This document shows, in pieces, positions 42,069-60,143 of a stretch of DNA of 64,000 bases (within the stretch, counting starts at the first letter, position 1; each line of letters begins with the position of its first letter). This stretch comes from Ruminococcus flavefaciens (lineage in GTDB: Bacteria; Bacillota; Clostridia; Oscillospirales; Ruminococcaceae), in assembly GCA_023662725.1 (NCBI GenBank), contig JAMPIL010000004.1, forward strand, positions 1 through 64,000, read 5' to 3'. The notes beneath the pieces are model-generated. The model worked only from the letters and a program-made list of their open reading frames with translations, did no database searches and was not told the origin of the DNA. A program made the position numbers and the translations under genes.

Positions 42069-42144
42069 CTGGGTGTGGCGCAGTTGGTAGCGCGCTACCT
42101 TGGGGTGGTAGAGGCCGTGGGTTCAAGTCCCGTCACTCAGACCA
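42069..42144 (+). tRNA. tRNA-Pro (anticodon GGG)
   Basis: A full cloverleaf can be folded: acceptor CTGGGTG / CACTCAG, D-stem GCGC with loop AGTTGGTA, anticodon stem CTACC / GGTAG with loop TTGGGGT (anticodon GGG at 42102-42104), T-stem GTGGG / CCCGT with loop TTCAAGT, discriminator A and encoded CCA (42142-42144). It borders the prophage. Confidence 0.95.
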
Positions 42145-42318: not shown

Positions 42319-43779
42319 TCAGATTTTGATTTCCGTGCCGTCCTTGAACAGAAACACCATACTGCCGTCGTGAAAAACGGTCAACGTTTCAACAAAAGCC
42401 GTCCAGATATTCTCATCAAAAGTTTCAAGAATAGAATCAGATTTTTTCAGCACACGCAGAATTTCCTGCATCTTGGCAATTCTGCCCTTTCGTTCAACCT
42501 CAATCTGTTCTTCGGCATCAATTTGTGCGGCGATTTCCTCGAATTCCGCCTGCAGTTCAACATTGTGTTCATCCTGCATTTTCAGCTGATTCAGCACAAA
42601 CTGGCAATTCCTGATAACTACATCTCTCTGCTCGAAATATCGGGAAAAAGCGTTCAGAAATTTCTGCTGGATTTCATGTTCGTATAAGTGCGGCGTTGTA
42701 CAAAAGTGCTCACCCTTGAACTTTGAATTGCACTGGTAAATCACACGGCGATATTTTGAGTTGGAATGCCATACTTTCGCACCAAAATAGCTGCCGCAGT
42801 CACCGCAAATCATTTTCGATGCAAAAATACTTGTACTGCTGTACTGTTTACCGGCATTTTCACGTTTTAGAAATTCTTCTTGCACAAGATCAAATTCTTC
42901 CGGGCTGATGATTGCAGGGTGACTGTTTTCAACGTAATATTGCGTAATTTCTCCCTCATTGATTTTCTGTTTTTTGGTCAGAAAATCAACCGTGAACTTC
43001 TTCTGGAGCAGTGCGTCGCCCTTGTATTTTTCGTTGGTGAGAATGCTTTTTATTGTACGGCTCGCCCATTTTTCCTTGCCTGCCGGAGTTGGAACGCCTT
43101 GTGCGGTAAGCTCTGCTGCGATTTTATACGGCGTAAGCCCTGCGATGAATTTTCTGTAGATATATCGCACAATTTCGGCTTCCTCCGGCACGATTTCGGG
43201 AAGTCCGTCCGCACCTTTTCTGTAGCCTAAAAATGATTTGTACGGCAGGCTGACTTTTCCGTCTGCAAAACGTTTTCGCTGTCCCCAAGTGACGTTCTCG
43301 GAAATCGAACGGCTTTCCTCCTGAGCAAGCGAGCTGAGAATACTTATCATCAGTTCGCCTTTGCTGTCAAATGTAAAAATATTTTCCTTTTGGAAATAAA
43401 CCTCCACATCGTGCTCTTTCAGAAGTCGTATTGTACTAAGCGAATCTACGGTATTTCGGGCAAAACGGCTGACGGATTTTGTAATAATTAAATTGATTTT
43501 TCCGTCAAGAGCATCCACAACCATCTGCTGAAATCCCTCACGCTTTTTGGTAGAAGTTCCGCTGATTCCCTCGTCCGTGTAGACTTTTACGAAATCCCAG
43601 TCCTCACGCTCCTTGATGAACTTTGTATAATAGTCAACTTGTGCTTTATAAGAGGTTACCTGTTCTTCCAAATCCGTGGAAACACGAGCATATGCAGCAA
43701 CCTTTCTTTTCTCGATGTGTGCCGTTGGCATATGAGTTTCGGGGTTGAACGTTGATGGAATGACCGTTATTTTTGGCAT
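42319..43779 (-). CDS. Large serine recombinase (second of a tandem pair)
   Basis: The 486-residue protein has an N-terminal resolvase domain with nucleophile Ser in AAYARVSTDLEEQVTSYKAQ near residue 35, ITKSVSRFARNTVDSL near 105 and SLAQEESRSISENVTWG. A recombinase domain (about 180-290), a zinc ribbon (CGDCGSYFGAKVW...YQCNSKFKGEHFCTTPH) and a C-terminal coiled coil follow. It cuts and rejoins DNA at att sites. Its start overlaps the other recombinase by 13 bases. It lies nearest the tRNA and is a candidate integrase. Confidence 0.93.
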   Translation of the reverse strand: MPKITVIPSTFNPETHMPTAHIEKRKVAAYARVSTDLEEQVTSYKAQVDYYTKFIKEREDWDFVKVYTDEGISGTSTKKREGFQQMVVDALDGKINLIITKSVSRFARNTVDSLSTIRLLKEHDVEVYFQKENIFTFDSKGELMISILSSLAQEESRSISENVTWGQRKRFADGKVSLPYKSFLGYRKGADGLPEIVPEEAEIVRYIYRKFIAGLTPYKIAAELTAQGVPTPAGKEKWASRTIKSILTNEKYKGDALLQKKFTVDFLTKKQKINEGEITQYYVENSHPAIISPEEFDLVQEEFLKRENAGKQYSSTSIFASKMICGDCGSYFGAKVWHSNSKYRRVIYQCNSKFKGEHFCTTPHLYEHEIQQKFLNAFSRYFEQRDVVIRNCQFVLNQLKMQDEHNVELQAEFEEIAAQIDAEEQIEVERKGRIAKMQEILRVLKKSDSILETFDENIWTAFVETLTVFHDGSMVFLFKDGTEIKI

Positions 43780-45053
43780 GATTGCTTCCTCGCTTTCTCA
43801 CGCATTTCGGCAGTCCAGCTCTCGGAGCGTGACCGCATCTGCCAGTGTTTTGTTTTCTCGTGACCGTCTGCAAAATGAAACTTCACAACGTAATCATCGC
43901 AGATGTCTATTTTCTCAATCTGCTCACCGAAAATTTCAGCGTTGAACTCCGTTAGACCAAGAACCTCCGCCGACAGCTTTTCTAAAGTGATTTCAGGAAT
44001 CTGTCTTGATGGGCAGGCTGATTTCCCCTCACGGTTGAATGTACTGCAAATCCAAACATAACCTGCTGCTGTTTTCTTACGCTGATAGTGCTTGCCGCAA
44101 CAGCTGCAAACCAGTTTTCCCGTGAATGGATAAACCTGCTTTTTGCCGTTACTGCGGTTGTAATGCTCGGTACGACGATTCATTTCAGCCTGCACGGCAA
44201 GGTACTGTTCCATTGGAATAATCGCCTCGTGAGCGTCCTCAACATGATATTTCGGTAATTGCCCCTCGTTTTTCATCGGTTTTTTTGTGATGTGATTTTC
44301 AAGAAAAGTCGTCTGCAAAAGCAGATTACCTGTATATGTATAGTTGCAGATAATTTTTGTAACCGAGTTTTTGTGCCATTTACAGCCTTTTCTTGTGATT
44401 TTTCCCTGTGCATTAAGTTCATTGGCAATCTTCTGAGTTCCTGCACCGTCCAGATACGAATCGAAGATAAACCGCACAACTTCCGCTTCTTCTGGTTCAA
44501 CAATCAGCACGCCGTTTTCGTAGCGATAGCCCAAAAGTGTGGCATTCCAAGGCATACCCTCTTTAAAATTTGTCTGAATCCGCCATTTCATATTATCGCT
44601 GACCGATTTGCTCTCCTCTTGTGCGAAACTCGCTAAAATACTTAACATAAGTTCTCCGTCACCCGAAATTGAATGCAGATTCTCTTTCTCAAACCACACA
44701 TCAACTCCCAGATTTTTCAGTTCCCTGACGGTTTCAAGAAGTGTAACAGTATTTCTTGCGAATCTTGAAATTGCTTTTGTGATAATCAGTTCTACCTCGT
44801 GATTCCGGCATTTTTCAAGCATTCTCTGAAACTGCGGACGTTCCTCTTTCGTACCTGTCATGGCTTCATCAGCGTACACACCGCAAAATTCCCAGCCTGC
44901 ATGATTTTTTATCAGATTCTGAAAATAGTCAATCTGAGATGCGAGCGAGTGGAGCATGGCATCTTTTCCGCTTGAAACTCGTGCATAGCCCACTACACGG
45001 AGCATTTTCGGCTTCGGCGGACGTTTATTAACAAGATGTACTTTGCGTTCCAT
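43767..45053 (-). CDS. Large serine recombinase (first of a tandem pair)
   Basis: The 428-residue protein has catalytic Ser in VVGYARVSSGKDAMLHSLASQ, ITKAISRFARNTVTLLETV, a recombinase domain (about 175-275) and zinc ribbon (CSCCGKHYQRKKTAAGYVWICSTFNREGKSACPS). A short C-terminal region follows, lacking the long coiled coil of its neighbour. ATG 45053 is chosen; upstream in-frame sequence has no site. Two different recombinases in one operon suggest a heteromeric recombinase or separate integration and excision roles. Confidence 0.9.
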   Translation of the reverse strand: MERKVHLVNKRPPKPKMLRVVGYARVSSGKDAMLHSLASQIDYFQNLIKNHAGWEFCGVYADEAMTGTKEERPQFQRMLEKCRNHEVELIITKAISRFARNTVTLLETVRELKNLGVDVWFEKENLHSISGDGELMLSILASFAQEESKSVSDNMKWRIQTNFKEGMPWNATLLGYRYENGVLIVEPEEAEVVRFIFDSYLDGAGTQKIANELNAQGKITRKGCKWHKNSVTKIICNYTYTGNLLLQTTFLENHITKKPMKNEGQLPKYHVEDAHEAIIPMEQYLAVQAEMNRRTEHYNRSNGKKQVYPFTGKLVCSCCGKHYQRKKTAAGYVWICSTFNREGKSACPSRQIPEITLEKLSAEVLGLTEFNAEIFGEQIEKIDICDDYVVKFHFADGHEKTKHWQMRSRSESWTAEMREKARKQSCQK

Positions 45054-45109
45054 AGACTTCACCTTCCTATTTAATAGTACTACTATATTCGCTCTGAATC
45101 GGCAAAAAG

Positions 45110-45268
45110 TCAAGGAATTTCACGGAATATACTGCACAAAGATAAGCCGCATTTTTTGGCTAATATCTGTTCAGAAAGTCTGAATTCTTCGGCGGTCAGA
45201 AGTCCTGTTTTCAGGAAATTCCGCATCATAGCAAGCGATAATTTGTATTCTAAAATCTTCTCATTCAT
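45110..45268 (-). CDS. Small protein of the recombinase cassette
   Basis: The 52-residue protein begins at ATG 45268 (NEKILEYKLSLAMMRNFLKTGLLTAEEF). The segment LLTAEEFRLSEQILAKKCGL resembles SHOCT-type short helical domains. Its start overlaps the upstream zinc protein gene. It recurs beside tandem serine recombinases in clostridial elements, as I recall; role unknown, perhaps a recombination directionality factor. Confidence 0.65.
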   Translation of the reverse strand: MNEKILEYKLSLAMMRNFLKTGLLTAEEFRLSEQILAKKCGLSLCSIFREIP

Positions 45269-47227: not shown

Positions 47228-48876
47228 CCCTCCAAAATTTTAATTGATTTAATTTGCGGATGCGAATTATTGGAACGCCCGGCAAAGGCAAAATAATACG
47301 TACCTTTGCCGACATTGCAATCGGATAAAGTAGTGACAAAAGTTTCGGAATACAGCCATTGAAACGGAATTTTTACCGCCGTGCCATTCTGAATTTGCGT
47401 GTAAACATACACCGAAATTGGCACGTCACTGTGTTCAGGTTTCGGCACAAGATACAGATCGCCGGATTCCGTTGCGCCGGACTTGTAACACATAGAAATC
47501 TGCGAATTACCGGATAGATTCAGTTCCTTGGTGCAGACAACATAAACCACGCCGTCCCAGCCAAAATCGTCCATAGAAAAATGCATCTGATAATCATTGT
47601 CAGCAGAAAGAAAATGGGGATAATTCGCCGAAAAATCAGCTAGAGAATTGTAGGCATTGTTGTAAATCGTGAACAGCTCAGCGCCATATTTTGAAACTGC
47701 ATCGCTGCCTGACGAGAACAGCGTAATACCGTTGTTGTGCAGCGATTCCAGAACGGTGATTCTGTTTTCAAGCATTAAAATGGCATCGTTCTGATTCTGC
47801 TGGTCGTATTGCGTGGAATCACGGAACTGCTGAAATTCAATATCAATGTCAGAAGTTTTATCCCATTTTGCCATTTTCGCCGCAGTAATACTGTTGAGTA
47901 GCGTCAGATTATGATGCCAATGCGCCTGCGAAATGACAGGCTCAACAGATTCCTTGACCGTCCGGATCTCACGATTGACAGAGTCCTCAAATTCCTGCAA
48001 GCCGCCAATTGCCGTCACAAATTCCTCTGTGATTTTTTCAAGCGTCCCAAGATTACTATGATCATGCTTTGACACATTCAGCACATCAATTGCCAAGGCA
48101 AGCACATAGTTCGCCACGGGGTTGCTGCTCATTTCATCAAGATGCGTGTCAATCGCCGTTATGCTGTCCAAAATATCTTGATTTTCATGATTATGGCCGC
48201 TCTCCAAAATCGGAGCAATCTGCGTTTCGATCAGTTTTTCGACATCCGTCGTTTTAGGATAATCCGACATATCAGGCGTTTCGCCGTCCTTGCCATCACG
48301 ACCATCGACGCCGTTTTTACCGTCTGCTCCGTCTTTTCCGTCAACACCATTGACACCATCTTTTCCCGGCATCCCATCCGCCCCTTTCAGACTTTCCAGC
48401 CACTCCGCAAGCGTCCCCACAAAGCCGTTTTCCTGTGCCAATTCATAAGCCGATAGACCGTCCTTACCGTTGACACCTGCCTGAATTTCGGCAATTTTCT
48501 GCAACAACTGCGTATACAGATCGGGAGTGGGTGGAATTGGTGTATCATCATCGCCCACAAATCCCGATGGGCGAATATTCAGCGTAATGGGAACAGTTGT
48601 CGCTCTCACGGTCGTGTCAGATGCCGCATCATAGCCGAAAACCGACATCTTTACCGCACCTGCATGAAGCTCCGCAGGAAGCTTGCAGGACGTTCCGTCA
48701 AAGCCTAAAACGATATTGTAAACCTCATCGCACTGGGAAAACTGCACAACCTTGTGAAACTTTTTCCAATCGCTGTCAAAGGTAAATTTCAGATTGACGA
48801 AAGCAATCTGATGATCGGCTATTACTTCACGCTCCAGAACCTCGATTTTCTGCTGTTTTACGAGAAATTTCCACAT
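47224..48876 (-). CDS. BppU-like baseplate protein with collagen-like repeats
   Basis: The 550-residue protein has an N-terminal BppU domain (about 1-110; QKIEVLEREVIADHQIAFVNLKFTFDSDW, IVLGFDGTSCKLPAELHAGAVKMSVFGYD). A collagen-like Gly-X-Y run spans about 165-200, a coiled-coil/His-rich stalk (about 205-385; HNHENQDILDSI, HDHSNLGTLEKI) follows, and a C-terminal beta-rich domain is probably receptor-binding. The HxH motifs in the stalk could bind metal as in trimeric fibres. Its start overlaps the fibre gene stop by one base. Confidence 0.85.
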   Translation of the reverse strand: MWKFLVKQQKIEVLEREVIADHQIAFVNLKFTFDSDWKKFHKVVQFSQCDEVYNIVLGFDGTSCKLPAELHAGAVKMSVFGYDAASDTTVRATTVPITLNIRPSGFVGDDDTPIPPTPDLYTQLLQKIAEIQAGVNGKDGLSAYELAQENGFVGTLAEWLESLKGADGMPGKDGVNGVDGKDGADGKNGVDGRDGKDGETPDMSDYPKTTDVEKLIETQIAPILESGHNHENQDILDSITAIDTHLDEMSSNPVANYVLALAIDVLNVSKHDHSNLGTLEKITEEFVTAIGGLQEFEDSVNREIRTVKESVEPVISQAHWHHNLTLLNSITAAKMAKWDKTSDIDIEFQQFRDSTQYDQQNQNDAILMLENRITVLESLHNNGITLFSSGSDAVSKYGAELFTIYNNAYNSLADFSANYPHFLSADNDYQMHFSMDDFGWDGVVYVVCTKELNLSGNSQISMCYKSGATESGDLYLVPKPEHSDVPISVYVYTQIQNGTAVKIPFQWLYSETFVTTLSDCNVGKGTYYFAFAGRSNNSHPQIKSIKILEG

Positions 48877-49988
48877 CAGTCAGCACCTCCGTTCGCCTTA
48901 TCGTTCAGATATTTTTCCCAGCCGTTCTCATCGTTGGTGTAATTTCCTGCACCGCAATTTGCTGAAAATGAAAGGGCAATGGACGCATCAGCTGCCGTAA
49001 CAGCACCGTCGCCGTCTGCATCGGGATAATTCACACACCTTGATTCCGTCGCTGCACCGTAGCTGTCAAACCAGTAACGCTTGCCGTCAATGGTGCGGTG
49101 CTGATTGACCAGCTTGCCCTCCGAAAGCGAAATGTAGTACATATTTTCGCCATATTCCACCCAGCCCAGCTGAATATTTCCGTTCTGCGGATCGTAGTAA
49201 TATCGTTTGCCAAATACAGTCCGCCAACCGGTTTTCAGCACGCCATTTGTGGCAAATTGATAGGGAATACCGCCGATTTCCTGTTCACCTGTGAGAGGAT
49301 TTCCGGCAGAATCGTAATAAAAAAGTTCGCCGTCGGCATTGGATGTAAATCGGATCCTGTCAGCGTTATTGAATAGATATTGCCGCAACTTTTTGACTTC
49401 TGCGGTCAGCGTTCCGTCCTTCAAACCGCTGACCTCCTGCTTGATTTGTTCCATTTCATCGAGCATTTCCGAAACCTTACACTTGCCCAGAATGCACCTG
49501 ACATAGCCGCATCTGCTTGTATTTGCCCGATAATCCGTGATATTTGACTGCTTGATCTCAGTTGCTCCTGCATTCAGGCGAACGGCTGCGAGGGTGAGGT
49601 AGGTTCTTGTCTGTGTGTTTGTGAAAGTCGGAATTTGAGGCGTGGTTGCCGCCGTTCCCGCCTTGATTTCAATGTCGCACTTGCGGTAGGTGTCATCTGT
49701 ATCGCAGTAAATTCCGATGATGAGATACTTGCTCATGGATTCGTCTACATATCGGGATAAATCCAGTGTGTAAGAGGAATCGTTGATAAAATAATGCCCA
49801 TTGATCCACGCTTTTCCACGCCCGACCGTGACTTTCAGACCTGTTGCAGCCGCTGTCAATTTGAAGCAGTCGCCGTAATTATCCTGAATCCCGTTGCAGA
49901 TTAGACTGCCGAGATAGTCGCAGAAATTCTCTGCTGTATAGGTTCTGTCGAGCCCTTTCGAGTTGAAAAATCCAAATGAAAATGCCAT
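48876..49988 (-). CDS. Phage fibre-like protein with wall-binding repeats and a dockerin-like loop
   Basis: The 370-residue protein has an N-terminal phage structural part (about 1-200; FFNSKGLDRTYTAENFCDYLGSLICNGI, typical of gut-phage tail proteins). Repeats resembling choline/cell-wall-binding units cover about 238-316 (GWRTVFGKRYYYDPQNGNIQLGW, TIDGKRYWFDSYGAAT). A C-terminal segment at 322-342 contains a perfect EF-type calcium loop: Asp323, Asp325, Asp327 and Asp334 in DADGDGAVTAAD, followed by a dockerin-like helix. Only the first half of a dockerin is clear; the second (about 348-365) is degenerate. It probably binds the host surface. Confidence 0.8.
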   Translation of the reverse strand: MAFSFGFFNSKGLDRTYTAENFCDYLGSLICNGIQDNYGDCFKLTAAATGLKVTVGRGKAWINGHYFINDSSYTLDLSRYVDESMSKYLIIGIYCDTDDTYRKCDIEIKAGTAATTPQIPTFTNTQTRTYLTLAAVRLNAGATEIKQSNITDYRANTSRCGYVRCILGKCKVSEMLDEMEQIKQEVSGLKDGTLTAEVKKLRQYLFNNADRIRFTSNADGELFYYDSAGNPLTGEQEIGGIPYQFATNGVLKTGWRTVFGKRYYYDPQNGNIQLGWVEYGENMYYISLSEGKLVNQHRTIDGKRYWFDSYGAATESRCVNYPDADGDGAVTAADASIALSFSANCGAGNYTNDENGWEKYLNDKANGGAD

Positions 49989-49990
49989 AT

Positions 49991-51112
49991 TTATACCTCC
50001 CTGAATGTTGGTGTCAGGCTTATGCCGTTCTGATCGAAGCTCTCAACCATGCCAATCAACTGTATTTTCGGCTGTATCAAGCCAAATCGCTGATGCTCTA
50101 CCATCACATAATCGCCGACGAAATAATCCGCATTGTAGCGAAACTGCGTGGATTGTACAGCAATCTGCGATTCCGAAGCTGTCAACGGTAAAATAATATT
50201 TTCCTTGCCACGCTCTTTCAGCAGTTCAATATACTCGGATTCAGAAATCGGCTTAGATTCACCATTTTCCTGTTGCTCATCCGCCATGTCTTTAGCGTCT
50301 ACATAGATCTCATAACGCTCTAAAAAAGACGGCTCATCGCCGTCGCAATATGTGGTGCGTTTTCGTTCTTCACCCTCTCCTTTTCCCAGAACATAGGCGA
50401 AATTCTGCTGTGCGGAAATGTCAGAGGAATATGTGAACGACAGCAGATTTGTGTATCTGTCAGAAAAAATGATGTGCGGATTTTCTTCCTGCAAAATGCT
50501 TCTGTCTGCACCTTGTGACAACTCAAAAACCATTCTATATTGACTGCTTGACGGAGTAATTTCCTGCAGACGAATATTTGCCGTGCCGCCGACAAGCGTA
50601 CAAATTTTGTATACCCACTCCATGAGATTTTTGTAGCTGATTTGCATTTGCGTTGTTTTTGCCCAGCATTCACCGAAAACCTCGCCTTTGACAAGTCCCG
50701 GTATCTTGCGGACGCTGTTTTCCATCATGGCGTTTGCGGTGACGACAGCTCTGACGATTGCACCATAGCTCATGGATTGTTGAAAAAGGAACGTCGGATA
50801 AATGATTCGCCGGGACAGCAGTGACATCAGAAATCTGCCTGTTATCGTCAGATAATCGCCGTTTTCTGCGTCGGTTTCAAGCCTGACAGATTCGATGATG
50901 CCATAGTGATTTTTGTCATCATTGCGACTGACAATTTTGCCGATTTTAAACATTTGCAGATTCTGCGGATCGGCTGCAATGTAAATTTCAAACGCTCCGC
51001 ACTGGTAATATTCTACGTCCCAAAGGAGCGAAGAAAAGCTGTCACAGATTGCTTCAAGCGTTATCGTCAAGTCATTTTCATTTGCTGTCATTTTGTAAAT
51101 TTCTATCTGCAT
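49991..51112 (-). CDS. Phage tail protein, Gp37-like (ReqiPepy6 type)
   Basis: The 373-residue protein (WDVEYYQCGAFEIYIAADPQNLQMFKIGKIVSRNDDKNHYGIIESVRLETDAENGDYLTITGRFLMSLLSRRIIYP) matches the Gp37-like family, the tail-tip protein following Dit in many Gram-positive siphophages. Later residues (EVFGECW, YKNLMEWVYKIC) continue the fold. ATG 51112 is preferred because GGAG lies eight bases upstream; the GTG at 51118 is too close to it. Confidence 0.85.
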   Translation of the reverse strand: MQIEIYKMTANENDLTITLEAICDSFSSLLWDVEYYQCGAFEIYIAADPQNLQMFKIGKIVSRNDDKNHYGIIESVRLETDAENGDYLTITGRFLMSLLSRRIIYPTFLFQQSMSYGAIVRAVVTANAMMENSVRKIPGLVKGEVFGECWAKTTQMQISYKNLMEWVYKICTLVGGTANIRLQEITPSSSQYRMVFELSQGADRSILQEENPHIIFSDRYTNLLSFTYSSDISAQQNFAYVLGKGEGEERKRTTYCDGDEPSFLERYEIYVDAKDMADEQQENGESKPISESEYIELLKERGKENIILPLTASESQIAVQSTQFRYNADYFVGDYVMVEHQRFGLIQPKIQLIGMVESFDQNGISLTPTFREV

Positions 51113-51114
51113 AA

Positions 51115-51966
51115 TCACACTCCTAAATAAGCGTTGCGGTGAATAAGCCGGACTTTCAGATTGGAAATACCACCCGATGCACGGAGATAAAATTTGTTTT
51201 CACCCTCTCGCAAGGTTAGCCAAGTTGAACCCGATACAAGCCGATTGATGATATTTGTTGTCACGCCTTCACGCTCCAGCATAACCGTTTTATTGCCGGT
51301 TTTCGTGGTGATCCGGATAATATCTCCCTCCTCAATATCGCCGAGAATCTGCATATATTCGTCGGTTTCAGCGTTGTACAAAGTAGGATTTTTGGCAGGT
51401 CCTCCGCTGATTTCAAGCGTGAACCCAGTTTCATCACCATCGTTCTGAATCGTCATCATGTTCTGTGTGTTGTATTTGCCAAGCGGAAATGGCTTGTCGT
51501 CATCGGGAAAAATGAAGTGAAAAGCACCGAAAACCTGCGAATATTCGGCAATTTGCGTTTCTGTGGAGTACCAATAAATATCCGGGCAGATAATCGAAAT
51601 CTGACCGCTTGTGAACTGCTCGAAATTGCTGATTTCGCAGGTTTCCACGTATCCCTCTGTGTACACATCAATGTTGGGTGTGCGGTAGTAAATCTTGATA
51701 TATCGGGAAGTTTTTACAACTCTGTACAGTTCGTGACGTCGTTTTTCAATACCGATGCCACGCATCTGAAAGGTAATCACAAGGTTACGTTTTTCGATGA
51801 ATGCGTTGTTCAGATAACTGCCGTTCATGCCTGCGTAAGTCGATGTGCTGATCGTTCCGTTTGGAGGATACAGACCGTCTATTTTGGAGGTCATGTACTG
51901 GTTGGCGGTGGTTGTCATATTAAGCTGTTCGCCGTTTTCGTTTTCTAAAATTAAGGTGAATCGCAT
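51115..51966 (-). CDS. Phage distal tail protein (Dit)
   Basis: The 283-residue protein begins with the Dit-type beta-barrel (MRFTLILENENGEQLNMTTTANQYMTSKIDGLYPPNGTISTSTYAGMNGSYLNNAFIEKRNLVITFQM). A C-terminal half similar to galectin-like Dit domains (FTLEISGGPAKNPTLYNAETDEYMQILGDIEEGDIIRI) follows. Dit forms the hub joining tail tube and tip. In a standard phage it directly follows the tape measure gene; here the TetR-GH9 cassette lies between them. GGAGG precedes the ATG. Confidence 0.9.
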   Translation of the reverse strand: MRFTLILENENGEQLNMTTTANQYMTSKIDGLYPPNGTISTSTYAGMNGSYLNNAFIEKRNLVITFQMRGIGIEKRRHELYRVVKTSRYIKIYYRTPNIDVYTEGYVETCEISNFEQFTSGQISIICPDIYWYSTETQIAEYSQVFGAFHFIFPDDDKPFPLGKYNTQNMMTIQNDGDETGFTLEISGGPAKNPTLYNAETDEYMQILGDIEEGDIIRITTKTGNKTVMLEREGVTTNIINRLVSGSTWLTLREGENKFYLRASGGISNLKVRLIHRNAYLGV

Positions 51967-52143
51967 GGATTTGACCTCCTTTCTGAAGATTGACTTTTTC
52001 GAGGATGGGTGTATACTGTAAAAGTGTAAGTTCTCAATAAGTCAAAATTTACATATTATTTTAAGACAAAGGTATTTCACAGTGTTATATTAATTAGCTT
52101 GAAAAATAACGGAATCTACCTACTTTTGATACACTTGATTGGT

Positions 52144-52194
52144 AAAAATAGTAAAAGACATGTTCTCTGAGAAGTCATGTCTTTTACTATTTTT
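52144..52194. terminator. Terminator of the TetR-GH9 cassette
   Basis: Perfect 19-bp arms (52144-52162 and 52176-52194; AAAAATAGTAAAAGACATG on the left) with A/T flanks, overlapping the GH9 stop codon by two bases. It works on either strand and isolates the cassette from Dit. Confidence 0.85.
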
Positions 52195-54556
52195 AATGAT
52201 TCATTTGTCGAATTAAAAGTTGTTTCATAAGGCACAAGTCAAACACATTTAGCATTTCATCTTCACATAAATCTCCTGCTTTCCAGTCAACAAGATGAAC
52301 ATCAGGTACAGCTAACAGCCACTTCTGCATTATGACAACATCCGCAACAGAAAATTTACCGTCTGCATTCACATCTCCCTCTACTCTGGTTGCACTGTAA
52401 GTTTCTGTAAATGAAAGAAGATAAGTAAGCGGAGAGTTCCAGTAAATCGTTACTTCATTAGTGGAATAGCTTTCCTGATTATCAACATAACATTTTCCTG
52501 TAGGCAAACCCGAACAATATGCCTGTGCAGCACTGTCTTCAAGATACGGATGTACTCCGCCGACAAGCATTCCTTTCATGGACTGTTCTTTTGCTATTGA
52601 TGGTCTGTGGTGAGGGTGTTCGGGCGAAACAGTTCCATAGCCTGTAAAATAACATATACCAATCGGATTACAGCCCATAAGATAATTAAGGTTAGAGTTT
52701 GCAGCTTTAATATATTTACTGTCACCTGTGAGAAGATAAGCATTTCCGAGGATAATTCCCTGATTTGCGGCAGTCATATTACTGCCCCAACCGCCTTTGT
52801 AATGCTGAACAACAGACAAACCATAGGGACTTTTTTCTGCATTTCTTACATGAGTATCTGCTCTGCTGATAATTGCATTTTTTGCATTGATATATACAGA
52901 AGATGTTTTATCAATATCTTCCATAGTCGCAATTGCAATATTACCGTAATCACCGAAATTCGCAGAATCAAGTCCGTCCTCCACCGTCATATTTTCAAGT
53001 TTTGTCAGATAGACAGCTTCACCTGTAGCACGCCACATCTGTGCTACTGCCCAGTATCTTTCATCTTTATCGGAACTGTCGCCGTATGAACCCGTTACAA
53101 TATCGGAGGGATTTTCAAAAATAAAATTAGGATTATCCTCTAAGAACTGCCATGCTTTTTCAGCAGAGGAAAGACATTTTTCGGCAAATTCTGTATCAAT
53201 ATCCTGATAAATTTCATAAGCAAGTGCCATTGTACCACAGAAATTCGCCGTTGCAGTTGTGGAAACAGGCGTAACAATCAATTCATCTGTTTCCTCCTCC
53301 GGCATAACATATCCGGGAAATGCCGCACAGGTGACTTTATGATACACACCGCCTGACGAATCCTGCATTTTCAGCATCCATTCAATTTCATATCTTGCCT
53401 CGTCCAGTACGTCGGGAATACCATTTCCGCTTTCAGAAATGCCGATATTGTCACTGAATAATGATGGTGAATTATCATAGGCATAAAGCAAATCAGCAAC
53501 AGTTTTCGCACCTGTTACAGTATATCTGCCGTAATCTCCTGCATCGTGCCAACCACCACTGACATCGATAGTTTTGCTTGTTCCGTAAATCGTTGCTTTG
53601 CTTGTATGACACGCTTTGTGTCCAAAAGTATCATCCTCAACTTCACAACCGCATCTCTGCAAATAAAGCATACGTACAGAATCATCAAGCACTGAATTAT
53701 AAACAGAGTCTGATATTTCAAAAGTATATGAGTTGTCAAGATTTCCGCAAGCAATATAATATTTGCCTGCTTCCTTAACCTGCGTAAAATCTCCCGTTCT
53801 GTTATTTTCACCCGAAAAATCACAGTAATTTTCTTTGGAGAGTTCACCAGTATAAACTACTTCATTTGTATCGGCATTCACAACAGAAAATTCAGTTTCA
53901 TCACCTGCATTGCTGAATACTGCCGTCTTGACAGAATCAGTATGATAACCTACCTGATTTGTAACAATTGACGGCTCATAACGTTTGAATCCTGAATAAT
54001 CAACGTTACTGTCATCAACCAGTTCAACAACAACATTATCAAGATAAATTGTATGTGCTGGTATATCGTCACCGTAGTTGCCACAGTTGAATACAAGCCT
54101 TGACATAATATCCGTGTCATATTCCATTGTGAACGTATAATCAACAGTCTGCGTTTCAGATGTAAGGGAAAGGTCCTCCCAAGTATAAGCCTGATAATTA
54201 CCGCCGTTCTGCTGAATACCGCCCTGTACAGTACAATCTTTATCAGAAGATATGTCATAACTGATACGGTAAACGCCGTTTTTATACAGCGGAATAATAT
54301 CATAAAAAAGCTGTACAGAATAGCTTACTGTGCCTGCCGATGCCACATTAAGTGCAAGTTGTCCGTTTTTCGATGTAACAGAACATTCTCCTCCGCTTTG
54401 ATAATATGTACCCCAACCGCTTGTATTGTAATCGAAAGTTGAATTGCTGACAAGATTTTCATTCTCCGCTGAAACTGGAACAAAGGTAACCACGCTGCTT
54501 ATCATAGCAGCTGCACACAGAAGAGAAATACATTTTTTTAGTACTTTATGCTTCAT
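52193..54556 (-). CDS. Cellulosomal GH9 cellulase (CBM4-like, Ig-like, GH9, dockerin) inside the prophage
   Basis: The 787-residue secreted enzyme has a signal peptide (about 1-30), a CBM4/9-like module (about 33-180; NLVSNSTFDYNTSGWGTYY) and an Ig-like CelD_N domain (about 193-282; IVTNQVGYHTDSVKTAVF). The GH9 catalytic domain is at about 285-718, with Asp338 and Asp341 in SGGWHDAGDYGRY, the His cluster in SPEHPHHRP (near 644-652) and acid Glu701 in NEVTIYWNSPLTYLLSF. A type I dockerin spans 727-787 (GDVNADGKFSVADVVIMQKWLL; second repeat GDLCEDEMLNVFDLCLMKQLLI). All key residues are intact. It hydrolyses cellulose and should join the host cellulosome. It starts by ATGA overlap with a TetR gene. 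Confidence 0.96.
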   Translation of the reverse strand: MKHKVLKKCISLLCAAAMISSVVTFVPVSAENENLVSNSTFDYNTSGWGTYYQSGGECSVTSKNGQLALNVASAGTVSYSVQLFYDIIPLYKNGVYRISYDISSDKDCTVQGGIQQNGGNYQAYTWEDLSLTSETQTVDYTFTMEYDTDIMSRLVFNCGNYGDDIPAHTIYLDNVVVELVDDSNVDYSGFKRYEPSIVTNQVGYHTDSVKTAVFSNAGDETEFSVVNADTNEVVYTGELSKENYCDFSGENNRTGDFTQVKEAGKYYIACGNLDNSYTFEISDSVYNSVLDDSVRMLYLQRCGCEVEDDTFGHKACHTSKATIYGTSKTIDVSGGWHDAGDYGRYTVTGAKTVADLLYAYDNSPSLFSDNIGISESGNGIPDVLDEARYEIEWMLKMQDSSGGVYHKVTCAAFPGYVMPEEETDELIVTPVSTTATANFCGTMALAYEIYQDIDTEFAEKCLSSAEKAWQFLEDNPNFIFENPSDIVTGSYGDSSDKDERYWAVAQMWRATGEAVYLTKLENMTVEDGLDSANFGDYGNIAIATMEDIDKTSSVYINAKNAIISRADTHVRNAEKSPYGLSVVQHYKGGWGSNMTAANQGIILGNAYLLTGDSKYIKAANSNLNYLMGCNPIGICYFTGYGTVSPEHPHHRPSIAKEQSMKGMLVGGVHPYLEDSAAQAYCSGLPTGKCYVDNQESYSTNEVTIYWNSPLTYLLSFTETYSATRVEGDVNADGKFSVADVVIMQKWLLAVPDVHLVDWKAGDLCEDEMLNVFDLCLMKQLLIRQMNH

Positions 54557-55188
54557 TTCAAATCCTCCTTTAAAAATTGCATCATAAAAGTATATACCGT
54601 ATCACGCACTGTAACGGGATAATAAGGTATTTCTGTAAGCTGTATGGCTTCAATTTGTTTCTGACTTTGCATTACATAAGAATCAAGTCCATATAAAAAC
54701 GTAAAAAAAGATACTTGAAATACTCTCTTTTCAGAGGTAGTCATGGAAGGGAAAAATTTATCCAGACATGAAAGAAAAATTTGAATTGCTTTATAAGTAA
54801 TCTTTTGAACCTCAGAAATACGTTCTGTACGGCTGTTTTCTTCAAGCTCAAGATGATTCCATGAAATCAGTTTCAACATTTTTTTCTTGTTTTCAAGAGT
54901 ATCCGAAACAGCAGATGCAAATTCAGAAGCCGTCATATTTTCATTATTTTCTATTTTATGGAGTTCTTCCACCCAATCAGTCAGTTCCTTACAAGTAAGA
55001 CCGAGAAAAATTTCTTCTTTTGTCTTGAAATAATTGTAAATGGAACTGCGTGTCATGCTGATTTCCTGTTCGATGTCACGCATGGAAATATTGCGAAAAC
55101 TCCTGCTTTGAAACAACTTATCAAAAGCGTTTATGATTTCTTCTTTTCTAAAATCCGTCAATTCAAGTGAACCTCTTGACATTACCAT
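54553..55188 (-). CDS. TetR-family regulator of the GH9 cassette
   Basis: The 211-residue protein has an N-terminal TetR helix-turn-helix (about 12-58; RKEEIINAFDKLFQSRSFRNISMRDIEQEISMTRSSIYNYFKTKEEIFLGL). A helical ligand-binding and dimerisation domain follows (about 70-205; LKLISWNHLELEENSRTERISEVQ). It is translated before and coupled to the GH9 gene (four-base overlap). Twin palindromes overlapping its promoter indicate autoregulation of both genes. The inducer is unknown; a cellulose breakdown product or phage-related signal is speculation. GGAGG precedes the ATG. Confidence 0.93.
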   Translation of the reverse strand: MVMSRGSLELTDFRKEEIINAFDKLFQSRSFRNISMRDIEQEISMTRSSIYNYFKTKEEIFLGLTCKELTDWVEELHKIENNENMTASEFASAVSDTLENKKKMLKLISWNHLELEENSRTERISEVQKITYKAIQIFLSCLDKFFPSMTTSEKRVFQVSFFTFLYGLDSYVMQSQKQIEAIQLTEIPYYPVTVRDTVYTFMMQFLKEDLK

Positions 55189-55216
55189 ATCGCCTCCATG
55201 CTTAATAATTTTTAAA

Positions 55217-55275
55217 TTGACAACTTGTCAGTTTAATTCCTTTTTAATTATACACCTAAACTGACAAGTTGTCAA
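55217..55275 (-). promoter_or_regulatory. Consensus promoter with twin TetR operators
   Basis: Minus strand TTGACA (55275-55270), a 17-base spacer and TATAAT (55252-55247). The -35 box is inside the palindrome TGACAAGTTGTCA (55262-55274). A second copy, TGACAACTTGTCA (55218-55230), lies after the expected start point. The two sites sit in 19-bp perfect inverted arms (55217-55235 and 55257-55275) with centres 44 bases apart, about four helical turns. Confidence 0.88.
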
Positions 55276-55546
55276 TATATATTTTTAAGACCATCTTTTT
55301 GTACAAATTTTGCAAGCAGTTTTTGTGGAAAATCAACACATATAATTTTCAATTACACCTATATACTATAAATTAGCATTTTCGGCAACTCGCACAAATC
55401 AGTGGCACATTTTCGTTGTATAACCTATTTTGAGTGGTGTGCAATAAAAAGTATAAAAATTTGAATATAGATCTATTATTTTACAATTTATATTTTACTA
55501 ATTTTCGATTTTGTAAATCAAAGGGGCGACCAAAAATCGCTCCTTA
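55276..55546. other. Gap between the tape measure gene and the cassette promoter
   Basis: AT-rich sequence with no coding potential. Next to the tape measure stop is an imperfect hairpin (GGAGCGA / TCGCCCC on the minus strand, about 55522-55543, one mismatch) followed by TTTGATTT, a possible weak terminator. Nothing else was recognised. Confidence 0.4.
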
Positions 55547-58500
55547 TTACATTTTCAACGCATTCCTTGTCTGCCGATAAATCTCCAGCCGTGACAGTGA
55601 TTTTGGACTATTATTGGTCTGATTCACCGTCCGGCTGTTGTCATAGTTGTTGATAACCGTTCTGGCAGGATTATTTTTCATAGGCGAAGAAATCCCGTCA
55701 AGGCTCAAACCAATATTGGAATCCAGCGACATCTGCATCGCATCAGCAACACCCTCAACCGCCTTGGAAATTAACTTTTTGCTCTTGTTGATTCCCTCCG
55801 CAAGACCGCCGATGAAGTCCGGCATCCAGCTTTCAAAATCTGTTAGCGGACCCTTTTCGGGAACGGAAAAATGCAGATATTCCCAGATTATATTTGCCAC
55901 GTCGCACACGGAATTGTAGAGGTCGGCGATCATATAGCGAATGCCATTGATAAGGTTCTGCATCAGATCATAACCCCACTGCCATGAGGAATTTGCGATA
56001 TTTTTAATGCAGTCAGCGGCGGAATTCAGTCCGCTTGAAACAGCGTCACGAATGCCGCCGATCCTGTCCCACACGCCATTTTTCACATTATCCCAAATAT
56101 TGAAAACAGTGTCACGGACATTATTCATTGCTCCACGAACTGCATCGGGCATGGCATTCCAAGCAGAAGAAACAGCGGATTTTATCGAGTTTACGGTATT
56201 TTTTACGCTGTCAGAAATACTGCTCCAAGTAGCAGTAATCGTATTTTTCATACTCGTCTGACCGTCAGAAATAAAGTTTTTGATTCCGTTCCACACACTT
56301 GAAATAACATTTTTAATGCCGTTTGTCGCTGTGGCGATTGTGTTCTTAATTAAATCCCAGCCCGATTTCACGCCGTTTCCGATGCCTGTAAGAACAGCGT
56401 CCATATTTGTTTTGATGTTGTTCCAGACGGTTGTAACTTCTGTCAGCGTGTTCTCCATAAACGTCTGCACAGTAGTTACAATATTGGACATGGCGTTCTT
56501 GAATGTGTCCGTCAGAGCCGTTGTGATGTTCGTTCCGAATGTGCTGAGTGCGTTATCCACCATTCCTGCGTTGGCAGTAATTCCGTCCGCAAGTCCTTGC
56601 ATAAAGTCCGGCATCCAGGATTCAAAATCGGTCAGAGGGCCTTCGTCCGGCACGGAAAAATGCAGGAAACTGCGGATTTTGTCCGCCACACCTGTGACAG
56701 CATCAGTTACCTTGCTGATACAGCTTTTAATACCGTCCACAATGCCGTTGATGATATCAGCACCCCAGTTCCACGCCTCACTTGCAAGATTTTTAACAAA
56801 GCTTACAGCATTATTAAAGCCGTTCACAATTGTATCTTTGATACCAGTTATTGTATTGGAAATTGCCGATTTTACGCTGTTCCAGATGTTAGACACAGTT
56901 GTTTTGATGCTGTTCATTACGTTTGTAATGGTCGTTTTGATAGCGTTCCAGATATTCGATACAGTTGTAGAAATGGCATTTAAAATACTTGAAACTGTAC
57001 CGCTAATCGTATTCCAGACTGAAGAAATGACAGACCAGATAGAATTTAAAATGCCCGAAATAAAGCCGGATATAGCAGTCCACACGGTTGAAATTACATT
57101 ATGAACAGTATCCATAGCCGTGGAAATAGCGGTAGAAATTGCATTCCATATCGTTTCAAAGAACGATTTTATGCCTTCAAGAATTGGTGTAATAAATTCA
57201 ACAATAGCGTTCCATATGGTTTGGATTTTTTCGGAAATCCAGTCCATAACATTGCTGATAATAATGTGAATCGCCTGAAAAATGGTTTCAAAAAGGTATT
57301 TAAACGCCTCTAAAAGCGGAGAAATAAACTCATAAATCGTATTCCAGACCGTTGAAATTGTGGTATATATCGCATTCAGCACTGTGGATATTGCCGTAGA
57401 AACAGCGTTCCATACAGTTGTAATTACCGTCTGAATAGCTGTGATTTTCTCCGAAATATAGCCATATATCGTATTCCAGATACCTATAAAGAAGTCTTTA
57501 ATTGCAGTCCAAATGGTGGTGAAAAACGTCTGTATTCCTGTGAAAATATTTGTAACAAAAGCTGTGATGCTGTTCCAGATTCCAACGAAAAAGTCCTTGA
57601 TTGATGTCCAGACCTCGCTCCATGAAGTACCAAACCAACCGAGAAATACATCTGCGATACCTTCGAGGGTGCTTATAATATTGGAAAAGCAATTCTTGAT
57701 AAAGTCCCATATTCCGACAAAAATGCCCTTGATACCGTTCCACATCTGCTCCCAGTCGCCTGTGAACAGCCCGATAAAAATATCCAAAATGCCGAGAATC
57801 ACATCAACGATAACATCGAAAGTTTCCGCAATATATGTGAAAACTCCTTCAAACCAAGGAGCAAGAATATCACACAAGCCCTGCCACACTGATTTTACAA
57901 CATCGCCGAAATCCTCAAAATTAAATCCGAGAGCATTTAATCTATCGACAATTCCCTGCGTCAGATTTGAAAAAGTAGCTTTGATTTTCTCCCAAATCGC
58001 AATGATGCTGTTTCTGAAATCCTCGTTTGTATTCCAAAGATGCACGAAAGCAGCCACAAGAGCCGCAATCGCCGCAACAACAGCAACCACAGGAGCGGAA
58101 ATTCCACCAATCGCACCGCTTAATGCAGTAAATGCACCCTTTACTGATGAGATGATAGCAGGTCCCTTTGCAATTAACTGCATCAGTCCGCCAATGCCGG
58201 ACGTGACTTTTCCAATTACAATTAAGACAGGTCCTAATGCTGCCACAACAGCAGCGATTTTGATAATCATATTTTGTGTTTCAGAATCTAAGCCGTTGAA
58301 CTTGTCAATCCATTCCTGGATTTTCGTAATAATGGGTGTTAAATGCTGTGCCAAAAGCTGTCCTAAAGATGTCATCAGAACATCAATGGACGACTTTAAT
58401 TTCTCAATAGAACCGCCGAAACCGCTCATCATAGCCTCTGCCATTCTGTCCGTTGTGCCGGAGCAGTCGGACAGTGACGTATTTAATTTTCCCACATCTT

Positions 58501-59941
58501 CCGGTGCGGTGTTGATCAAAGCTAACCACGGAGCCATTTGATTTTTACCGAAAATAGCGGACGCCGCAGCGATCTGCTCCGATTCAGAAAGCTTGGAAAA
58601 AGCCTTGTTTAACTCAGATTGAATGGCAACCGAATCCTTCATGGAACCGTCTGCATTTGTTACAGAAATGCCCAGCTGCTCCATCATCGCCGCACCGTCT
58701 TCCGCCGGACTGACAAGTCTTGCAAGACCTGTTTTCAGGGAATTTGCAGCGACGTCCGCCTCAATTCCGTTGTTCGCCATAACGCCCATATATAGGGCTG
58801 CGTCGTTGATATTGTAGCCTGCTGATGAGAAAATCGGGGCTGCAACAGACATCGCACTTGAAAGGCTGTCCACGTCCAAAGCGGAGTTATTGCAGGCTGC
58901 CGCAAACACATCAGCGTAGTCTGCCGCCTCGTCAAAGGAGCCGTGAAATCCGTTGATTGTGGCAACCAATCCGGCGGAAACGGTGTCCAGATTGCCACCC
59001 TCTCCGGCAGTCAGATTCATGGCAGGTGCAAGGGCAGAAGCAGCTTGCTCGGCGGTGAGACCGGCTCTTGCAAAATTTAGTGCGGCATTTGCGGCGTCAC
59101 TCATACCAAATGTGGAGTTGGCGGCGGCATTTTTCATCGCCGTATCAAGCATTTCCGCCTGTTCTTCGGTGTTTTCCATGGTGGAGTTGACAAGCTGCAT
59201 GGTCTTATCCACATCGGCAAATTTCTTTGCTGCTGTGCCGCCAAGTGCTGTAATGCCTGCGGTCAAAGGCAATAATTTCTGACCAGTGCCGGAAATTTTA
59301 TCACCGGCATTTTGCAGTTTCCCACCAACATCTCCGATTTTTTCAAGAGCGGATTTAGAGTTTTCCGCCTCACGCTGCAGGTTCTGAAGTGCCTGTTCTG
59401 TTTCTATGATTTCACGTTGGAGAGCGTCATATTGTTCCGGTGAAATGGGGTGACCAAATTCTTCATCGACATCCTGAGCCGCTTTTTTCAGGTTTTCCAA
59501 ATCCGTTTCTGTATCGGAAATTTCCTTTTGCAGAGCGTCGTATTTTTCCTGAGAAATTTCGCCCTTTGCAAGCTGTTCATCGGCATCCTTGGATTTTTCC
59601 TTGAGGTCTTTTAGTTTGGTTTCCGTTTCACTGATTTTTGTTTTCAGTGGGTCGTATTTGGCTTTCCATGCGTCGTATTGATTTGCAGATTTGGCTGCTT
59701 CCTCATTTGCTTTTTTGAGCGTTTCCAGCTTGTCGCCAGTTAAGGAAACTGCATCGGCAAGGAGCTTCTGTTTCTGTGAGAGAAGCTCTGTATTGGTCGG
59801 GTCGAGTTTTAGAAGTTTTTCTACGTCTTTTAGCTGTGTCTGCGTGTTCTTGATATTTTTATTGACGCCTTCGAGAGCCTTACTTAGCTTAGTTGTGTCG
59901 CCGCCGATTTCAACGGTTATCCCTCGAATTCTGTTTGCCGT
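55547..59941 (-). CDS. Phage tail tape measure protein with apparent ACG start
   Basis: The reading frame is open from ACG 59941 to the TAA at 55547, 1464 codons. The first residues after ACG (ANRIRGITVEIGGDTTKLSKALEGVNKNI) are the family's usual N-terminus, which normally starts with Met. GGAGGTG lies seven bases upstream and a TGA closes the frame just before. The protein has a coiled coil (about 20-220), a TMP domain (about 215-420; FADVDKTMQLVNSTMENTEEQAEMLDTA), membrane-like segments near 580, and about 15-20 Trp-containing repeats (IWNAI..VI.TVWNTI type). The block HFSVPxxGPLTDFESWMPDF occurs twice. It sets tail length and forms a channel at infection. No ATG, GTG or TTG occurs before codon 148. 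Confidence 0.9.
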   Translation of the reverse strand, partial: TANRIRGITVEIGGDTTKLSKALEGVNKNIKNTQTQLKDVEKLLKLDPTNTELLSQKQKLLADAVSLTGDKLETLKKANEEAAKSANQYDAWKAKYDPLKTKISETETKLKDLKEKSKDADEQLAKGEISQEKYDALQKEISDTETDLENLKKAAQDVDEEFGHPISPEQYDALQREIIETEQALQNLQREAENSKSALEKIGDVGGKLQNAGDKISGTGQKLLPLTAGITALGGTAAKKFADVDKTMQLVNSTMENTEEQAEMLDTAMKNAAANSTFGMSDAANAALNFARAGLTAEQAASALAPAMNLTAGEGGNLDTVSAGLVATINGFHGSFDEAADYADVFAAACNNSALDVDSLSSAMSVAAPIFSSAGYNINDAALYMGVMANNGIEADVAANSLKTGLARLVSPAEDGAAMMEQLGISVTNADGSMKDSVAIQSELNKAFSKLSESEQIAAASAIFGKNQMAPWLALINTAPEDVGKLNTSLSDCSGTTDRMAEAMMSGFGGSIEKLKSSIDVLMTSLGQLLAQHLTPIITKIQEWIDKFNGLDSETQNMIIKIAAVVAALGPVLIVIGKVTSGIGGLMQLIAKGPAIISSVKGAFTALSGAIGGISAPVVAVVAAIAALVAAFVHLWNTNEDFRNSIIAIWEKIKATFSNLTQGIVDRLNALGFNFEDFGDVVKSVWQGLCDILAPWFEGVFTYIAETFDVIVDVILGILDIFIGLFTGDWEQMWNGIKGIFVGIWDFIKNCFSNIISTLEGIADVFLGWFGTSWSEVWTSIKDFFVGIWNSITAFVTNIFTGIQTFFTTIWTAIKDFFIGIWNTIYGYISEKITAIQTVITTVWNAVSTAISTVLNAIYTTISTVWNTIYEFISPLLEAFKYLFETIFQAIHIIISNVMDWISEKIQTIWNAIVEFITPILEGIKSFFETIWNAISTAISTAMDTVHNVISTVWTAISGFISGILNSIWSVISSVWNTISGTVSSILNAISTTVSNIWNAIKTTITNVMNSIKTTVSNIWNSVKSAISNTITGIKDTIVNGFNNAVSFVKNLASEAWNWGADIINGIVDGIKSCISKVTDAVTGVADKIRSFLHFSVPDEGPLTDFESWMPDFMQGLADGITANAGMVDNALSTFGTNITTALTDTFKNAMSNIVTTVQTFMENTLTEVTTVWNNIKTNMDAVLTGIGNGVKSGWDLIKNTIATATNGIKNVISSVWNGIKNFISDGQTSMKNTITATWSSISDSVKNTVNSIKSAVSSAWNAMPDAVRGAMNNVRDTVFNIWDNVKNGVWDRIGGIRDAVSSGLNSAADCIKNIANSSWQWGYDLMQNLINGIRYMIADLYNSVCDVANIIWEYLHFSVPEKGPLTDFESWMPDFIGGLAEGINKSKKLISKAVEGVADAMQMSLDSNIGLSLDGISSPMKNNPARTVINNYDNSRTVNQTNNSPKSLSRLEIYRQTRNALKM

Positions 59942-59975
59942 GATTGGTCACCTCCGTTCAATTGCATAATATGCC

Positions 59976-60143
59976 TTAAAATCGGTCAAAATCGTCCTGC
60001 GCGGCAATTTCCTTCCAGCCGGAATAGTCGTCCCTTTCTCTTTCGCTATACATATCATTCACCAATCCGATAGTAAGAAGCTCCAGCTCGGAAAGAGAAA
60101 TTCCGAGCTGAACGCATCTCAGGAGAAATAAAGGCGTAGTCAT
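59976..60143 (-). CDS. Tail assembly chaperone, frameshift extension (GT-like)
   Basis: The 55-residue ORF (TTPLFLLRCVQLGISLSELELLTIGLVNDMYSERERDDY...DFDRF) overlaps the upstream chaperone stop (ATGA). It is the typical short downstream protein of siphophage tail chaperones. It could be made alone from ATG 60143, but it is in the -1 frame of the upstream gene downstream of a slippery sequence, so it is more likely the C-terminal part of a frameshift fusion. Confidence 0.8.
   Translation of the reverse strand: MTTPLFLLRCVQLGISLSELELLTIGLVNDMYSERERDDYSGWKEIAAQDDFDRF

Follow-up and report, generated by a model that had tools for sequence, protein, structure and literature searches.

The window analysed here is a stretch of 64,000 nucleotides from Ruminococcus flavefaciens (assembly GCA_023662725.1, contig JAMPIL010000004.1, positions 1 to 64,000), part of a 99.7-kb contig in a 3.1-Mb genome, and it carries on its minus strand a siphovirus-type prophage in whose tail module lie genes for a cellulosomal cellulase of glycoside hydrolase family 9 (GH9) and for a TetR-family regulator. 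The prophage was recognised by protein family matches and by the order of its open reading frames (ORFs), which on that strand is serine integrase (43767..45113), amidase, fibre, tail protein, Gp37-like tail protein (Tal; 49991..51118), distal tail protein (Dit; 51115..51966), TetR-GH9, tape measure protein (TMP; 55547..59500, with an open frame running upstream to ~59940), major tail protein and capsid. Beyond the window the block continues with ORFs for portal, large terminase and replication, identified by eye in translation, which together with the matched integrase, capsid, tail and lysis families make up a one-block siphovirus gene set. Gene order and families thus confirmed the location between TMP and Dit that the first-pass annotation had assigned to the cellulase.

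The GH9 gene (52193..54556, minus strand) encodes a protein of 787 aa with Pfam matches to CBM_4_9, CelD_N (an Ig-like domain) and Glyco_hydro_9 (E 6e-93, catalytic domain complete), followed by a C-terminal type I dockerin; a signal peptide was recognised by eye. The motifs DAGDYG, HPHHRPS and YSTNEV, which we take to be those holding the GH9 catalytic residues (the Asp pair and the Glu), align to the solved GH9 enzymes 5e2j and 3ez8, and the protein is assigned to the GH9 cellulase class with its predicted active-site motifs intact. The dockerin reached 26.1 bits when scanned alone (cut-off 22.9) and 20 bits, below the cut-off, in the whole-protein scan; the top four dockerin-like stretches elsewhere in the genome share 59–66% identity with it, and the host genome contains eight cohesin matches over the cut-off, with host cohesins at C11:1202438-1208213. 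The complete enzyme with CBM4-like and dockerin modules that had been described earlier was borne out by these matches. Its named relatives in genome contigs are Ruminococcus records in 13 of 15 cases, the other two being Oscillospiraceae and Clostridiales records. A second dockerin-bearing GH9 was seen close to the far end of the contig (L046 12742-15679; contig 96741-99678), where it adjoins a holin-like gene and an ORF with an amidase-like start and a recombinase-like end, these neighbours having been identified partly by eye.

The TetR gene (54553..55188, minus strand; TetR_N and TetR_C_34) overlaps the GH9 gene by a few bases, its stop codon overlapping the GH9 start codon, and the two form a two-gene operon. 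The promoter scan placed in front of this operon the sequence TTGACA-17-TATAAT (55247..55275, minus strand; 12/12), which is conserved at two homologous cassettes and tops the 21 promoter-like sites of the region (13.7 expected by shuffling). Two putative TetR operators, both exact copies of the palindrome TGACAANTTGTCA, accompany it: operator 1 (55262..55274) overlaps the −35 box, and operator 2 (55218..55230) lies downstream of the −10 box. Exact matches to this palindrome occur in the 3.1-Mb genome at these two places only, the reversed pattern, used as a control, is found once on each strand, and two matches within one mismatch in the window were equalled by 3 of 100 shuffles. Paired palindromes over the regulator's own promoter, conserved among homologues, correspond to the predicted layout of a TetR autorepressor. 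A wider TetR regulon was considered and set aside, there being no further exact copy of the palindrome in the genome; sites with mismatches were searched in the window. From the GH9 stop codon extends a strong AT-rich hairpin (52143..52195, both strands; dG ~ −24 kcal/mol, z −7.05 and −6.00), read here as terminator-like, which the terminator scan of the region did not list and which would keep the old promoter on the Dit side, described below, from reading into GH9. Among the control elements proposed in the first-pass annotation, the regulator, the promoter and the two operators were therefore recovered, and the terminator was recovered by folding statistics and not by the terminator scan.

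Morons, or lysogenic conversion genes, are accessory genes with their own promoter and terminator and with a composition unlike that of the phage, inserted between structural genes. The cassette shares with them a predicted promoter and terminator-like hairpin of its own, an insertion between structural genes, absence at this place in relatives, which carry other cargo there or none, and a deviating GC content at third codon positions (GC3; 0.30 in both TetR and GH9 versus 0.44–0.51 in the TMP, Dit, Gp37-like and capsid genes). Judged by these features, the cellulase is a credible moron, and the view of the pair as a self-contained cassette, with predicted control of its own and a composition unlike that of the phage, was upheld.

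The same promoter-operator unit was found in three of the 125 genomes of the genus, always in front of TetR-GH9 (the window, L202 and L203). The L202 copy has a formate-THF ligase gene on one side and genes of the DUF5131, helicase, YunG and YgjP-like kinds on the other; the L203 copy lies beside FtsW-type, penicillin-binding and ribosome-hibernation-type genes. None of ten neighbours of the two copies matched a structural phage family when compared with PHROGs; several L202 neighbours matched PHROG families assigned to DNA metabolism or without a known function, and a mobile element may be present at L202. In a tree, the three cassette GH9s group together with 100/100 support, separately from the host core GH9, which groups with the core copy of another species (the bootstrap had not settled completely, and L203 covers half of the columns). 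Because of this separate clade, an origin as a vertical copy of the host core GH9 was rejected. The dN/dS values, obtained with synonymous sites near saturation, were 0.10 and 0.11 for GH9 in two of the three comparisons (the third was saturated) and 0.13 for TetR, which would indicate purifying selection on the cassette genes. More distant TetR kin at five loci adjoin aldo-keto reductase and redox genes, and three of these (L212, L216 and L217) show by eye a similar paired-palindrome layout upstream with a different palindrome. Six GenBank phage records matched GH9, all at <60% identity and none covering 80% of the query; three pattern matches to the cassette promoter in IMG/VR proved to be one unrelated sequence seen three times and were dismissed. 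At the loci compared, the pair was not seen at this spot in a chromosome without phage genes, an arrangement that had been held out as counting against phage carriage.

The variability of the site was surveyed with a Dit query, which matched in 46 of the 125 genomes, at 49 IMG/VR loci and in 261 GenBank phage records, two of the latter, both Ruminococcus phages, having a Dit identity of at least 60%. The resulting set comprises 109 loci, the window included (those with upstream DNA and several partial ones, not every genome place that matched). Both flanks were lacking at seven loci, and the remaining 102 divide into 85 filled sites, with 374–4825 bp between TMP and Dit, and 17 empty ones, with 6–17 bp; removal of exact duplicates left 73 filled sites, and clustering left 64. 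The rule on which the first-pass annotation had relied, that Dit normally follows TMP directly, does not describe this phage group, where 85 of 102 sites hold cargo in between. In a comparison with relatives, of the kind it had recommended for finding the junctions, both edges of the window's cassette fall at the cargo edges of those relatives. The Ruminococcus phages NatCom_23091 and NatCom_29429 (PV036433.1 and PV036441.1; “Ca. Heliusvirales” in the record) have the same tail module, with a 77.9% identical Dit and one antisense ORF between TMP and Dit, a 150-aa hypothetical protein and not GH9. In Butyrivibrio phage Arian, presumably lytic, TMP adjoins the tail protein and there is no cargo; in MT835488 a long ORF that overlaps Dit was taken as TMP by its place and size. 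Dit matches are confined to the first 28–73 residues in G022, G027, G002:C43, G044:C76, G043, G008 and others, as if the N-terminal end were shared among otherwise different Dit proteins, and the partial-Dit loci with both flanks (L156, L157, L158, L160 and L162) comprise four filled sites and one empty site.

Cargo ORFs, taken as the longest non-overlapping frames, number 112 in 77 clusters, and the window's GH9 shares its cluster with no other cargo ORF. The families recognised include Na/H exchanger, VanZ, chromate and NMN transporters, TauE, glycosyltransferase, NUDIX, flavin reductase, Shedu, Fic, PD-(D/E)XK and GIY-YIG. Of 30 representatives compared with Pfam one at a time, 20 matched a family at E 0.001, with 18 over the curated cut-off, and ten were blank, one of these blanks being the wrong ORF of L092; another 35 representatives, scanned as a set, gave 29 families, and 69 representatives scanned with PADLOC at E 1e-5 gave 54 families, with SduA, UzuA, SoFic and PD-T4-3 among the matches listed. 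The cargo is a mix of defence and non-defence genes. It lies antisense to the tail operon in the other 84 filled sites, and only the window's cargo runs with the operon; an apparent second case of sense-oriented cargo, in L092, was rejected as an artefact of the longest-ORF choice, an antisense flavin reductase being the likely gene. A second, distinct prophage of the same type in this genome, with a 92% identical Dit, holds at the TMP-Dit site a different 477-aa antisense gene (L044 14295-15725, minus strand), for which no Pfam family was found at E 0.001. The largest site seen, 4.8 kb with eight antisense ORFs, is that of L134 (5698-10524).

Next to Dit, and reading away from it, the window contains the antisense promoter TTGACT-16-TATACT (51990..52017, plus strand), which taken alone is one of the 21 promoter-like sites of the region. 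A sigma-70 score of at least 9.5 on the opposite strand, in the 75 bases before Dit, was found at 61 of 68 distinct filled sites, compared with 7.3% of shuffles and 3 of 68 sites on the sense strand. Of 56 representatives whose cargoes are unrelated to one another, 54 reach a score of at least 9 and have in common a motif wider than the hexamers, with the consensus TTGACTTTTT ... ATGTGGTATAAT. The Dit-side promoters of L044, L123 and L124 are near-identical over unrelated cargo, and that of the window is related to them, with a 16-base spacer. Just after the TMP stop, at the opposite edge, lies a terminator-like hairpin (55521..55545, plus strand; z −4.29) oriented for an antisense gene and possibly a relic of earlier cargo; the terminator scan gave three sites of this kind in the region (2.0 expected), and hairpins resembling it were noted by eye in L044, L079, L122 and L124.

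Five things are read from sequence: where the cassette lies, how variable the site is, the promoter motif that the sites share, the composition that sets the cassette apart and its recurrence elsewhere. They are probably best explained if the TMP-Dit junction of this Ruminococcus siphovirus family is a dock for accessory genes, serving lysogenic conversion and equipped with its own outward promoter, in which a host-derived TetR-GH9 operon has replaced the usual cargo. An outward antisense sigma-70 promoter on the Dit side would stand in front of the single genes or small operons that different phages hold there, and in the window such antisense cargo would have given way, in opposite orientation, to an operon with its own promoter, operators and terminator. 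This replacement is the simplest history because the window retains the Dit-side promoter and the hairpin after TMP. In a lysogen, TetR would repress its own operon through the two operators until released by some signal; GH9 would then be exported, its dockerin would bind the host cohesin scaffold, and the cellulosome would gain a further endoglucanase. Homologous recombination within the end of TMP and the start of Dit could exchange the cargo, for example between co-resident prophages like the second one of this genome. In the more general form of this proposal, towards which we incline slightly, the phage supplies a promoter and exchangeable flanks, a plug-in arrangement by which defence, transport and fibre or cellulosome genes would circulate between hosts.

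Several observations weigh against the dock as described. Two of them concern its flanks and lower confidence in it slightly: hairpins on the TMP side are not general (z < −2 in only 15 of 64 distinct sites), and a TMP-side terminator was accordingly rejected as a regular part of the dock; and the start of Dit is not the best-conserved flank, its first 60 bases reaching only 0.60–0.67, with 0.71–0.79 in bases 61–210 and 0.70–0.73 in some later stretches. The last 90 bases of TMP are conserved at 0.72–0.85 versus 0.51–0.60 in the preceding 90, and an inner stretch reaches 0.69–0.71; flank conservation as a sign of recombination anchors is at best suggestive, being weakened by the poorly conserved first 60 bases of Dit. 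No cargo exchange event was caught among the loci examined. GH9 is the cargo in one of the 85 filled sites, the window's own, and the same cassette, for which a search in related prophages had been proposed, was present in none of them. A core GH9 with 63% identity to that of the cassette is already present in the host, and GH9 is interrupted in the assembly in both the L202 and L203 copies, which argues against steady selection for the TetR-GH9 pair.

Further difficulties arise from the state of the prophage itself, which may be grounded, so that the cassette would be an ordinary host gene pair in a decaying element and no phage would move it between cells; we regard this as unlikely while giving it real weight. 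The 20-bp hairpin between TMP and Dit stands inside the late operon, in the late direction, and could block transcription of the late tail genes, so that the phage would have to antiterminate or bear a cost, and a prophage that does not antiterminate could be impaired. In the TMP gene the frame stays open through the conserved N-terminus to ~59940 with no ATG, GTG or TTG there, the earliest such codon being an internal TTG at 59500 (59500-59944, minus strand), and either an unusual start codon or damage may lie behind this. Decay would also agree with the host-like GC of the cassette, with the TetR-GH9 pairs of two other species located away from phage structural genes, and with the outcome of two IMG/VR viral-contig scans, which seed on few exact peptides and gave no GH9 relative. 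It accords poorly with an insertion made within the edges used by cargo in the 84 other filled sites, with the dock sequence kept beside Dit, and with the structural and lysis ORFs of the window and the large portal-, terminase- and replication-like ORFs beyond it, which are long and open.

A dock with a promoter of its own has also to be compared with a TMP-Dit site that has none, where each gene brings its promoter, as morons in general do, and the likeness merely reflects the sigma-A consensus and phage kinship. The presence of a promoter is weak evidence here because any antisense cargo gene would need one at that place, and the case therefore rests on the shared motif and on a modest link to Dit. 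Positions outside the hexamers are only partly conserved, and the 16 same-cargo pairs are more alike in the promoter, the neighbouring stretch and Dit together, which does not separate the two readings. However, over 2262 different-cargo pairs, which are not independent of one another, the promoter stretch is 57.2% identical versus 49.3% when shuffled and 46.7% in the adjacent stretch, and its identity rises with that of Dit (rho 0.23), whereas that of the adjacent cargo stretch does not (rho 0.007). Judging from these comparisons, the promoter seems to belong to the site and not to the cargo, and a site without one is rather improbable. Joining of a host GH9-TetR fragment to the prophage contig by faulty assembly or binning, conceivable for a single assembly of 70 contigs in which cassette and phage differ in composition, is very improbable: the two junctions fall where the cargo of relatives begins and ends, homologous frame sequence is preserved on both flanks, and the genome is 99.96% complete with 1.28% contamination and carries the second distinct prophage of this type.

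The proposed dock resembles several known systems in part. Compared with morons as usually understood, one junction of one phage family here holds dozens of unrelated cargoes, and the promoter is seemingly that of the site. Defence hotspots of phages and satellites, reportedly described by Rousset et al. in 2022, are said to combine a fixed location with high cargo turnover and defence genes; the TMP-Dit site is likewise fixed, of high turnover and provided with defence genes, but it sits between TMP and Dit in Ruminococcus phages and has many transport and metabolic cargoes. In an integron, the promoter of the platform expresses whichever cassette is inserted. The analogy with that platform is functional only, exchange at the dock presumably proceeding by homologous recombination.

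The first-pass annotation knew of no described phage-borne dockerin cellulase, and this stands in part. A GH9 cellulase encoded on a rumen viral contig has been published (PMC10465536, Nat Commun 2023) and is functional, with activity on CMC in E. coli; it is 79.5% identical to a Ruminococcus MAG protein and is flanked by viral genes on an incomplete contig. The window's GH9 is likewise Ruminococcus-related and placed among viral genes. The main text of that article contains the word “dockerin” 0 times and, as far as that text goes, describes no site, regulator or dockerin, whereas in the window the prophage module, the dock, the TetR gene and the dockerin are defined. In another study (PMC6784887), viral metabolic genes are reported to be very scarce, with none that redirects carbon. 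No description of a phage-borne dockerin enzyme or of a TMP-Dit dock with its own promoter came up in searches of the open-licence PMC literature. Thus, phage GH9 has a precedent, while the dockerin, the regulation and the dock appear to be new within the literature searched.

Some other features of the prophage deserve mention. Between the tail chaperone gene and TMP there is another variable site, with gaps of 182–3365 bp in 64 loci (duplicates included); the gap in the window (59940-60140) is 202 bp, among the shortest, and PV036433.1 carries an antisense gene there. The tail protein at 48876-49988 (minus strand) contains a choline-binding repeat, and its end is a half EF-hand similar to a portion of a dockerin; the match is weak, at 14.6 bits and to one half only, and a true dockerin was rejected. 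By eye, this end is common to L044 and L096, and most other complete tail proteins end in a different repeat; a regular-expression count of dockerin-like tail ends gave 1 of 71 with a pattern too strict to catch the window's own. Two tandem recombinase frames, 39% identical over 332 residues, occupy the left end of the prophage (42721-45113, minus strand), close to a tRNA-Pro at 42069-42144, and near the right end, past a strand switch, a type III restriction-modification-like ORF pair was recognised by eye (L046 5910-10155).

Which gut and rumen bacteria can digest fibre depends in part on their cellulosome subunits, and a prophage-borne and apparently self-regulated subunit points to a possible route by which fibre genes spread between gut bacteria, as well as providing a testable case of a phage changing fibre digestion. 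The dock is the wider discovery of the two. Its ~64 distinct filled sites in one phage family amount to a catalogue of genes, many of them without a known family, from which lysogens may profit, and the catalogue can be mined by looking between TMP and Dit.

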